A stretch of DNA of 64,000 nt from an uncultured Bacillota bacterium (GTDB taxonomy: Bacteria; Bacillota_I; Bacilli_A; RFN20; CAG-288). The notes beneath the pieces are model-generated. The model saw nothing but the letters and a program-made list of their open reading frames with translations, did not search any database and was not told where the DNA came from. Below are positions 132 to 3,624 of the stretch, piece after piece. The position numbers were made by a program, and so were the translations under genes. The DNA is taken from positions 1 to 64,000 of the forward strand of contig CASESG010000006.1 of assembly GCA_949290645.1 (NCBI GenBank), written 5' to 3'. Position 1 is the first letter of the stretch. Every line of letters starts with the position of its first letter.

Positions 132-824
132 TCACGCACTCGATTGGTCGTCAACACCTTTTTGAAAATTTATCACATTTTGATTTTCCCTTCTGTAGGA
201 ATAATAGTTTTTCTTGCCGAAGATAATGCTATCAATGAAATAGACATGGCGTTTATGCAAGACTTCGGAAACGTTTCTTGTCACATTATCATCGGAAGCA
301 CTCGGCTTTTCTGAACCCGACGGGTGATTATGACAGAGAATAAAGCCAAACATATTCTCGGAAAACTGTGTTTCCCACAGATATTCCAGGGATACCGGCG
401 CATTGTCACAAGCTCCCAGGCCCAAGACATCTACGTGCAGAACAATGCCACTCTTGTCGACTTGGACTCCAAGGACACGCTCTGATTTCTCACCGAAAAA
501 GCAAGCGCGGTATATGTAATAGAAATCCTGAAGCGAAGTAATTTTATTAAAGCTCTTCAGCGGAAGGCGACGGATAATCTCGCCAATCGCCAAGATTCGA
601 TATATTTTCGCCTTGTTGATTCCAAAGGTCTTGATTTCTTCATAAGAGTGCGTCAAAAGAATGGGCAATTCTCCTTTCTCTCTCAGAAGACGAGAGGCCA
701 TTTCCAAGACATTCTCATGCACGGAACCAGTCTCAAGCAAGAGAGCCAGAAGCTCATACTCTTGGAGCGAGCCGATTCCGTACATGTCTGCCTTTTCCCG
801 TGGCATCAATATGCCATTCTTCAT
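132..824 (-). CDS. radC: RadC family JAB/MPN-domain protein
   Basis: A 230-residue RadC (UPF0758) protein. The N-terminus carries the family's short helical region with a PREK...YELLALLLETGS stretch. The C-terminal half is a JAMM-type metal-binding domain with the HNHPSG motif (His165, His167) and the downstream Asp178 that complete a zinc site. RadC was once linked to DNA repair; its biochemical role is still unsettled. A GTG at 830 would add two residues, but the ATG at 824 forms an ATGA overlap with the stop of the preceding small gene, so I choose 824 and infer translational coupling. It is the last gene of the tig-lon-engB-valS run. The 131 bases beyond it hold no gene I can support. Confidence 0.9.
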   Translation of the reverse strand: MKNGILMPREKADMYGIGSLQEYELLALLLETGSVHENVLEMASRLLREKGELPILLTHSYEEIKTFGINKAKIYRILAIGEIIRRLPLKSFNKITSLQDFYYIYRACFFGEKSERVLGVQVDKSGIVLHVDVLGLGACDNAPVSLEYLWETQFSENMFGFILCHNHPSGSEKPSASDDNVTRNVSEVLHKRHVYFIDSIIFGKKNYYSYRRENQNVINFQKGVDDQSSA

Positions 825-1003
825 TTCCACTGGAAAGTGAATCCTCCCGGGAACACCGCCTTGCCTTCGCCGCTGGTAAAAAACTTGAAAGCAATCACGG
901 CAATCAAGCCAATTGCAAGAAACGCCATCACGGTCGCAAGGGTAATCGCTTCACCACCCTTAACCTCCAAGCATTCCTGCTCCGTCAATCTTCGTCTTGC
1001 CAT
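821..1003 (-). CDS. small double-glycine-leader peptide with one hydrophobic segment
   Basis: A 60-residue peptide of unknown function. An in-frame ATG lies seven codons upstream, but an AGGAGG sits 8 bases before the ATG at 1003, which fixes the start. The N-terminus MARRR is followed by LTEQECLEVKGG, which fits the double-glycine leader pattern of class II bacteriocins and peptide pheromones (Leu -12, Glu -8, Val -4, Gly -2, Gly -1). Cleavage after GG would release about 43 residues: a hydrophobic stretch (about 19-42) and a short aromatic tail ending FTFQWK. No peptidase-containing ABC transporter or immunity gene is adjacent. The stop overlaps the radC start, and valS ends 47 bases upstream. 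It could be a bacteriocin-like or signalling peptide, or simply a small membrane protein whose GG is coincidental. Confidence 0.7.
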   Translation of the reverse strand: MARRRLTEQECLEVKGGEAITLATVMAFLAIGLIAVIAFKFFTSGEGKAVFPGGFTFQWK

Positions 1004-1050
1004 AGGAATATCCTCCTTCACCATTTATTGGAGGATATCGTAACCATTAT

Positions 1051-3624
1051 TTACTTCTGTTTTTCGTATTCCGCTAATTCAGCGAGATATTTGGCATATT
1101 TCTCTTTTTCAAGAGCGACCTTCTGCGGATTGGCCTTGGCCAAGAAGGCCGGGTTGTCAAGCATCCCGCGCGATCTCTTGATTTCAGCCTGAAGAGCAGC
1201 AATTCTCTTTTCAACGCGTTCCTTCGTCGCCGTGCTGTTCTCTTCTTGGATTCCCAAGGAGAACGAAGGAGTGACAATCGGATGCGTGATATCATCGACA
1301 GAAGTGATCACGTCCGCAAAGGCATAACGCTTCAAATAGGGAAGAACTTTTTCCAAAAGCTTTGGTTTCCCTTTATAAAGAAGGTTGACCTTAGAATTGG
1401 GGGCAAAACCATGCTTCGACTTGAAGTTTCGAATTTCACGGATGCTCAGATTGAGCGATTTTGCAAGTTCAATCGCCTTGTTATCCGTGGAGAGATTTGC
1501 CTCCGAGGGGAAGGATTCCTCATAGATAGAGACCTTGGAAGAGGGAAAATGGGAGTAGATTTCTTCGGAGATAAAGGGGCAGAACGGGAAAAGGGCAATC
1601 AGAATATCATTGAGAACAAAGGCAAGAACGTCTCTGGTCGTATCGGATTGACCGTTCTTGATGGCGACTTTCGCATATTCCAAATAGATGGAGCAGAACG
1701 AATCGTACACGAAAGAATAGATGTAATTCGCCGCCTGCCCAAGCTCGTATTTCTCCATGTTCGTGCGATACGCCGCAACGAACTTGTCGTGTTCAGACAA
1801 AATCCATTGATCCAGGAAGGATAGTTCGTCATTCTTCGGATGTTTCGGCCGATATCCGTCGTTCAAAAGACTCAGGACATACCGAGAGGCATTCCAAATC
1901 TTGTTCATGAAACCATGAGCATTTTCCAGTTTCGATTGCGCAAAAGTGATGTCCAACCCAGGAGTCGAACCCGTGGCAAGAGCATAGCGCAAGGAATCCG
2001 TTCCATATTCCTTGATGACTTCGAAAGGATCGATTCCGTTGCCGAGGGATTTGGACATCTTTCTTCCTTTTTCATCGCGAACCAGGCCATGGATAAATAC
2101 CTTCTTGAAAGGCATCGTCCCCGTGAAATGGACACCTTGGAAAGCCATGCGTTCCACCCAGAAGAAGATGATGTCATATGCCGTGACCATGACATCGAGA
2201 GGATAGAATCTTTGATAGAGAGGGTCTTTCGTATTCGGCCAGCCCAAGAACGCAAAGGGTGCCAGAGCCGAGGAAAACCACGTGTCCAAGACATCCGGAT
2301 CCTGCTCATAGGTTTCCGGGCTGAGCGGAACCTCGGAGCAGACGACTTCTCCCGTTTTCTTGTTCGTGTAAACCGGGATGCGATGTCCCCACCACAATTG
2401 CCGGGAGATGCACCAATCATCCGTGTTTTCGAGCCATTGCATGAAAATGTCTGAAAAACGGTTCGGGAAGAAAGTGGTCGCCGAAGAGGATTTCTGAATC
2501 TTCTCGACCTTGTCGGCAAGAGGTCGCATGCGAACAAACCACTGCTTGGAAAGCATCGGCTCGACGACGGCGCCGCTTCTTTCGGAATGCCCGACATCGT
2601 GCTGAATCTCTTCGATGCGAATCAAATTGCCGTCGCTTTTGATCTTCTCCACCAAAGCATCGCGGCACTCATACCGGTCCATACCGGCATAATCACCACA
2701 GTTTCCATTCATCGTCGCATCGTCGTTGAGAATCTTGACAAAGGAAAGGCCGTGCCTTTGCGCAATGCGGAAATCGTTGGGATCATGTGCCGGAGTGCAT
2801 TTCATCGCTCCTGTCCCGAATTCCTTGTCGACATAGCGGTCCGGAATCAAAGGAATGGGCTCTCCATTGGCTGGATTGATGACTTTCTTGCCTTCCAGGC
2901 CCAAATATCTCTCGTCTTCTGGATTGAAGCAGACAGCCTGGTCGCCAAACATCGTCTCAGGACGGGTCGTTGCAACCTCAAGATAGCGGGAATGGTCTTC
3001 AAGCCAATATTTGAAATAATAAAATTTGCCCGGATCATTGCGATAGATGACCTCGATGTCACTCAAAGCCGTCTTCAAAACCGGATCCCAGTTGATGATG
3101 CGCTCTCCGCGATAGATCAAACCATCGTCGTAAAGAGTCTTGAAGACATGAGCAACCGCCTTTTGCATACCCTCGTCCAAGGTGAATCGCTCCTTGGAAT
3201 AATCCATCGAAAGACCAAGGGCGCGCCATTGCTTGGAAATGTAATCGGCATGCTCTTCTTTCCACTTCCACGCTTCTTCAAGAAAAGCTTCCCGTCCCAT
3301 CTCGTACTTGTTCTTGCCTTCCGAGCGAAGCTTTTCTTCCACTTTGGCCTGGGTCGCAATGCCCGCATGATCCATGTCCGCCAGGAAAAGGACATCATAG
3401 CCACAAATCATCTTGTAGCGGGCCAAAATATCGATGATTGTCGTGTTTGTCGCATGTCCGATATGGAGAATGCCGGTGACATTCGGAGGAGGAACGATCA
3501 TGGAGAAAGTCGGTTTGTCCAGGTTTTCCGGCCTCATCGCCTCAAAATAGTGATGCGATTCCCAAAACTCTTCCTTTCCTTCCTCGCACAGGCGATGATC
3601 GTAATTCTTTTCCATGTCTTTCAT
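1051..3624 (-). CDS. valS: valine--tRNA ligase
   Basis: Class I aminoacyl-tRNA synthetase of 857 residues, close to the usual bacterial ValRS length of about 880. It charges tRNA-Val with valine in the cytoplasm. The nucleotide-binding signatures are HIGH at residues 54-57 and KMSKS near 522. A large CP1 editing insertion lies between them. The last 60 residues or so form the charged coiled-coil tail typical of ValRS. An AAAGGAG 9 bases before the ATG supports the start. It follows engB by 21 bases on the same strand, so it is probably in the tig-lon-engB operon. No T-box leader is visible upstream. Confidence 0.97.
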   Translation of the reverse strand: MKDMEKNYDHRLCEEGKEEFWESHHYFEAMRPENLDKPTFSMIVPPPNVTGILHIGHATNTTIIDILARYKMICGYDVLFLADMDHAGIATQAKVEEKLRSEGKNKYEMGREAFLEEAWKWKEEHADYISKQWRALGLSMDYSKERFTLDEGMQKAVAHVFKTLYDDGLIYRGERIINWDPVLKTALSDIEVIYRNDPGKFYYFKYWLEDHSRYLEVATTRPETMFGDQAVCFNPEDERYLGLEGKKVINPANGEPIPLIPDRYVDKEFGTGAMKCTPAHDPNDFRIAQRHGLSFVKILNDDATMNGNCGDYAGMDRYECRDALVEKIKSDGNLIRIEEIQHDVGHSERSGAVVEPMLSKQWFVRMRPLADKVEKIQKSSSATTFFPNRFSDIFMQWLENTDDWCISRQLWWGHRIPVYTNKKTGEVVCSEVPLSPETYEQDPDVLDTWFSSALAPFAFLGWPNTKDPLYQRFYPLDVMVTAYDIIFFWVERMAFQGVHFTGTMPFKKVFIHGLVRDEKGRKMSKSLGNGIDPFEVIKEYGTDSLRYALATGSTPGLDITFAQSKLENAHGFMNKIWNASRYVLSLLNDGYRPKHPKNDELSFLDQWILSEHDKFVAAYRTNMEKYELGQAANYIYSFVYDSFCSIYLEYAKVAIKNGQSDTTRDVLAFVLNDILIALFPFCPFISEEIYSHFPSSKVSIYEESFPSEANLSTDNKAIELAKSLNLSIREIRNFKSKHGFAPNSKVNLLYKGKPKLLEKVLPYLKRYAFADVITSVDDITHPIVTPSFSLGIQEENSTATKERVEKRIAALQAEIKRSRGMLDNPAFLAKANPQKVALEKEKYAKYLAELAEYEKQK

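Follow-up and report, generated by a model that had tools for sequence, protein, structure and literature searches.

A conserved double-glycine leader peptide encoded between valS and radC in an uncultured Bacillota order, and its likely C39 peptidase partner

Why should a housekeeping operon carry a gene whose product resembles a bacteriocin precursor? The question is raised by a 60-codon gene between valS and radC of an uncultured Bacillota bacterium (GTDB order RFN20), found in the first 64,000 nucleotides of contig CASESG010000006.1 (NCBI GenBank assembly GCA_949290645.1), the stretch of DNA called here the window. A preliminary description, made from the letters of the window, had offered three readings of this peptide with a double-glycine (GG) leader: an orphan bacteriocin, a signalling peptide or an undescribed class of small membrane protein. 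Here we report evidence that favours the last of these. The explanation that we prefer, at a probability of about 0.6, is that the gene product is a precursor from which a dedicated C39 peptidase, whose own gene lies at the ybeY-era locus, releases a conserved housekeeping membrane microprotein; a bacteriocin-processing system would probably have been recycled to mature a protein that stays in the membrane.

The peptide gene and its conservation

The open reading frame occupies 821-1003 of the minus strand, from an ATG at 1003 through 60 codons to a TGA at 823-821, and its product is MARRRLTEQECLEVKGG/EAITLATVMAFLAIGLIAVIAFKFFTSGEGKAVFPGGFTFQWK, with leader and core on either side of the slash. 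The parts of the gene and its two neighbours are:

953 to 1003, minus strand: leader of the precursor, residues 1-17 (MARRRLTEQECLEVKGG), with C39 cleavage predicted after Gly17
824 to 952, minus strand: mature core, residues 18-60, predicted to form a membrane helix and then a PGG beta-hairpin ending in FxFxW
821 to 823, minus strand: TGA stop codon of the peptide gene, in an ATGA overlap with the ATG of radC (824-822)
1011 to 1018, minus strand: strong Shine-Dalgarno sequence AAGGAGGA of the peptide gene, 7 bases before its ATG
132 to 824, minus strand: radC, translationally coupled, with PF04002 and PF20582; the protein is also given as 132-830
1051 to 3624, minus strand: valS, the conserved neighbour upstream of the peptide gene

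A single-sequence search found the peptide in 56 of 59 related genomes from eight families of the order, and with a profile built from 29 homologues it was detected in every one of the 55 same-order genomes within a draw of 395 genomes of the class; a single-sequence scan of genome contigs returned one relative only. The frame with its strong ribosome binding site is thus a real gene, as the preliminary description had taken it to be. A strict leader pattern, composed after the peptide had been seen, matched once in the window against 0.05 times per 64 kb simulated with an order-1 Markov model, and the conservation is the stronger argument of the two. The order valS-peptide-radC recurred wherever the context was read in the order (e.g. 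loci L014 and L119), with rplU further on and variably close, which supports the placement originally described, and the gene is usually single copy and vertically inherited. Because the stop codon overlaps the radC ATG as ATGA, the claimed coupling to radC is visible in the sequence; radC is nevertheless a conserved neighbour rather than a proven functional partner of the peptide. Neither immunity nor transport genes were found adjoining the peptide gene, which is flanked by valS and radC in the window and likewise in the relatives read.

The leader of the window peptide has the length (about 15-25 residues), the hydrophobic and acidic spacing and the G-G/A/S end of the GG type, and it is kept in relatives, as a genuine leader should be: among the 29 order homologues, Gly stands at position -1 in 28 and at position -2 in 25, the latter being often replaced by V, S or P in family f5. 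The hydrophobic core is more constant than the leader, with the consensus EAITLTxVMAxLAIGxVAVIxYKLFxSxxGKxxLPGGFxFxW and the invariant residues T21, G47, P52, G53, G54 and F57. When the window genome is compared with its closest relative, about 27 synonymous and 6 non-synonymous differences fall in the core (proportions of non-synonymous and synonymous differences, pN 0.06 and pS 0.89), against pN 0.36 and pS 0.76 for the leader.

No Pfam or NCBIfam model matched the window peptide, and comparison with solved structures gave chance transmembrane matches only. The AlphaFold (AF2) model consists of a leader helix (residues 8-13), a membrane helix (16-43) starting at the GG and hairpin strands at 47-51 and 55-59, so that the mature peptide is predicted to have a helix-plus-hairpin shape; a GG inside one continuous transmembrane helix had been named as the sign that would speak against a leader, and the model breaks between the two helices. 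The mature peptide begins with a short stretch that is neutral or weakly acidic (its first six residues carry a mean net charge of -1), and its tail past the helix is net positive (mean 2.6 K/R and 1.1 D/E). An N-out/C-in topology is expected when the positive-inside rule is applied to these two ends.

The C39 protein that accompanies the peptide

The genome of the window contains exactly one C39 peptidase match, a protein of 417 aa (G000:C3:165624-166874) with a C39 domain and transmembrane helices but no ATPase (no ABC_tran). The statement that no ABC peptidase lies nearby stands for the window; the C39 gene lies on another contig, between dnaI and ybeY-era (locus ybeY-era-recO-glyS). Homologues of about 380-450 aa occupy the same position in the genomes of the order that were read, with dnaI, yqfD, dnaJ or another gene upstream and ybeY-(cdd)-era-recO-glyS-dnaG-rpoD downstream; in genome G041 the ybeY-era downstream block was not seen beside the C39 gene. 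The C39 domain was detected in 54 of the 55 same-order genomes, and the word orphan is accordingly a poor fit for the peptide.

Across the homologues Q9, C15, H88 and P105 are invariant and D104 is nearly so, and the proteins are otherwise mostly 15-30% identical to that of the window genome. The partner thus has the C39 domain with the Q, C, H and D of PCAT transporters. Its AF2 model (pLDDT 88.5) shows the C39 fold followed by six long helices, and the closest PDB structures found with Foldseek were PCAT1 (E 7.6e-12) and then the GG-protease/leader complex 6mpz. The transmembrane domain of an ATP-binding cassette (ABC) exporter is recognisable by fold only, Pfam ABC_membrane missing the proteins of the order, and a nucleotide-binding domain is absent, with no ABC_tran match in 417 aa. 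The best NCBIfam match was NF045998 (Mbov_0121 family), at 48 bits against a cut-off of 500; FapD and FilB matches were also obtained. As the sole C39 protein of its genome it is likely the partner of the peptide, and from co-occurrence and correlated loss we infer that it cuts this peptide.

Other C39 genes and unusual neighbours were also seen. G046, G050, G054 and G387 have an extra C39-ABC protein of 720-730 aa in a cluster resembling those of ribosomally synthesised and post-translationally modified peptides (RiPPs), which is a separate system; at L193-L195 (G046, G050, G387) this RiPP-like cluster has two proteins of about 725 aa, of which one is the C39-ABC, and a 465-aa neighbour. In G056 (L072:278-8538) the C39 gene adjoins a tandem of three proteins, each about 880 aa long, two of them clearly similar and with a lipoprotein-like N-terminus.

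The pair in other orders and its reduction

Family f20, whose gene content suggests that it is Erysipelotrichales-like, has a full C39-ABC protein of 670-700 aa in the slot before ybeY and a homologous GG peptide in the valS-radC slot. The order of genome G347 is called here Mycoplasmatales-like, because TGA is read as Trp and the genomes measure 0.4-2.1 Mb; in its families f11, f22, f29 and f36, C39-ABC-type proteins precede ybeY-era. Homologous or similarly built GG peptides adjoin radC in f32, f33, f35 and f36, as homologous ones do in f20 and f25, and GG peptides also stand directly upstream of rplU in f11 and part of f22 and beside lspA-ileS in f22. We read these scattered positions as a single ancestral slot, valS-peptide-radC-...-rplU, after gene loss. 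Peptide and C39 protein are present or absent together in the Mycoplasmatales-like families, neither having been found in f37 and in genus g217 of f32.

The C39 protein occurs in successive states of reduction. The complete transporter stands at the ybeY slot in f20, f22, f29 and genus g86 of f11; in the f11 genera g40, g115, g186 and g168 the ATPase region has no recognisable Walker A and signature motifs; in the window's order the ATPase is deleted; and in seven f25 genomes inspected, all with peptide leaders, the C39 domain stands alone at 115-127 aa, with no transmembrane part, directly before ybeY-dgkA-(cdd)-era and in several with phoH upstream. A fifth state is also found in f25, where 17 of 30 peptide genes are leaderless and begin at the core (MTTSSILMFVAIAAGIAAIYKLLTSGRGRVSIPGIEMTWGK and similar); no small C39 gene was confirmed in any of these 17 genomes. 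C39 domain matches were obtained in 9 of the 13 f25 genomes with a leader and in 1 of the 17 without (Fisher p=4e-4, uncorrected for ancestry). Loss of the leader where C39 is missing would be expected if the leader served C39 and the mature core did the work, and it fits poorly with a requirement for ATP-driven export. On these sequences the loss or decay of the ATPase has happened on at least two occasions, and we argue from the whole series that cells can do without such export and that the mature product stays in the membrane as a small resident protein.

In the proposed mechanism the peptide would be synthesised as a cytosolic precursor, its GG leader keeping the hydrophobic chain in the cytosol; the amphipathic leader would dock in the C39 groove, the peptidase would cut after the GG, and the freed 43-mer would insert in the membrane N-out/C-in with one helix and a net-positive tail. 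For the transmembrane part of the C39 protein we suppose a role in anchoring the enzyme to the membrane or in passing on the product, and the mature peptide would act in the producing cell via its C-terminal beta-hairpin (PGGFxFxW). We give even odds to a wider account, namely that this is an ancient, vertically inherited pathway of Erysipelotrichales- and Mollicutes-type bacteria and uncultured sister orders, in which GG cleavage times or orients the insertion of a microprotein rather than its export, in which every step of reduction from full transporter to leaderless gene is represented, and which supplies the substrates of orphan mycoplasma C39 transporters.

Several observations weigh against this explanation. 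In genome G369 and in genus g272 no C39 was detected, although the peptide and its leader are present. The stand-alone C39 proteins of f25 (L287, L288, L294, L296, L302, L305, L306) have no N-terminal active-site Gln, and in the genomes that carry them position -1 is often taken by K, R, S, M or L, so that cleavage in f25 is doubtful and these proteins may bind rather than cut. The mycoplasma-type peptides have diverged strongly: the search picked up the first two at E ~0.003, the profile that found the remaining ones included these two, and the assignment leans on position too. The ATPase is moreover intact in many lineages, where export may still matter.

Alternative explanations and related systems

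The intact ATPases of f20, f22, f29 and f11-g86, the transmembrane domain kept in the window's order and the net cationic tail would also suit an exported housekeeping peptide, released by the C39 protein, which would work unaided or with an ATPase in trans, and acting on the surface or membrane of its own cell. We consider this unlikely, given that the ATPase is deleted throughout the window's order and independently degenerate in four f11 genera, and that some f25 genomes have no C39 transmembrane part at all and others in that family have a leaderless peptide. A class II bacteriocin whose transporter is lost or distant is far less probable still, even though the leader fits the pattern and some homologues weakly match TIGR03949 or PF10439, with one f20 homologue above the NCBIfam cut-off of TIGR03949: no sampled genome of the order lacks the peptide, its synteny extends across orders, and reduced mycoplasma-like genomes retain it. 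Vertical inheritance, a usually single copy, the lack of an adjoining immunity gene and purifying selection that is stronger on the core than on the leader speak against both bacteriocin and signalling peptide as labels, and the undescribed class of small membrane protein is the option that is upheld.

The pheromones of the ComC/ComA and BlpC/BlpA systems are made via a GG leader and C39 processing, which speaks for a ComC/Blp-type pheromone sensed by a membrane kinase. Pheromone cores, however, differ from one species to the next; this core hardly changes within the order and forms a membrane helix in the AlphaFold model. Mycoplasma-type genomes, moreover, generally lack two-component systems, and we find a pheromone hard to credit. 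It is similarly improbable that the C39 protein serves other substrates and that the peptide is a small membrane protein with an incidental GG. Such chance would account for the VG, SG or PG before the core in a number of homologues, mostly of f5, and for the missing C39 of G369, but hardly for a Gly at -1 that is all but constant, for the co-occurrence of the two genes, including their joint presence and absence in Mycoplasmatales-like families, or for the loss of the leader where C39 is lost. Two further candidates were dropped: pilin-like maturation (G|E, then a hydrophobic helix), as there is no Glu5 and C39 co-occurs (no search was made for prepilin peptidase genes), and a RadC-linked function in competence or DNA repair, which is unsupported because in mycoplasma-like genomes the peptide also occurs at sites other than radC, namely upstream of rplU or beside lspA.

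The resident membrane protein that we prefer shares parts with several known systems. Transporters of the PCAT1, ComA and LctT/NukT type have the same C39 catalytic residues, PCAT1-like transmembrane fold and substrate leader (LSxxELxxIxGG), but in the window's order the nucleotide-binding domain is missing, the substrate gene lies far from the C39 gene, and the substrate is conserved and housekeeping-like rather than diversifying. Class II bacteriocins (PF10439; TIGR03949, lactobin A/cerein 7B) likewise have a GG leader and a short hydrophobic core; here the core is family-specific (helix plus PGG hairpin) and conserved, with no immunity/export cluster. LahT150, FapD and FilB are stand-alone C39 leader peptidases that act on RiPP precursors, amyloid or pili; they too work without an ATPase of their own, and the system described here differs in pairing a reduced transporter with a conserved microprotein. 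The mycoplasma C39-ABC family NF045998 is the best NCBIfam match of the partner and shares the ybeY-era neighbourhood in the Mycoplasmatales-like genomes read; the window genome's protein, with the low score given above, differs in having no ATPase.

Mycoplasmas with reduced genomes keep C39 transporters, and so does the minimal cell JCVI-syn3A (gene 0401) (PMC6609329); by annotation 0401 is a C39 transporter of the general kind of NF045998. In the metabolic reconstruction of JCVI-syn3A, 0401 was modelled as a lipoate importer because no double-glycine peptide was known for it, and it was listed among the removable genes per reconstruction and transposon data (PMC6609329). For such mycoplasma transporters, described without a substrate, we offer candidate substrates at fixed positions; that for syn3A and M. 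mycoides is a prediction, as it is drawn from family f11. A literature search of partial coverage found no paper on the peptide/C39 pair. The pairing offers a testable reason why the C39 peptidase is retained in reduced mycoplasma genomes. If it is true, a GG leader and a C39 enzyme can serve the maturation of housekeeping membrane proteins, and automatic bacteriocin labels on such genes are therefore unsafe.

Further small proteins were observed beside these genes. In f25 and some f20 genomes a membrane-anchored SPOR-like small protein separates the GG peptide from radC-mreC-mreD (L107:8350-8763, L111:7434-7847, L115:7456-7815). A one-helix protein of 125-150 aa follows the C39-ABC gene in mycoplasma-type genomes and f17 (L231:4172-4549, L232:2391-2768, L235:2907-3359, L239:4175-4615) and is missing beside the ATPase-less C39 of the window's order; it is possibly an export accessory. 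Tandem GG-leader peptide pairs occur near the inorganic pyrophosphatase gene in a mycoplasma-type genus (L162-L164; G476, G480, G482). In f17 (L180-L186; e.g. G078, G283, G377) a complete C39-ABC of about 690 aa is followed by a conserved tandem GG peptide pair, and the f17 pairs are often near rpsU-yqeY or yqfD-ybeY; both types recur across genera and look housekeeping.
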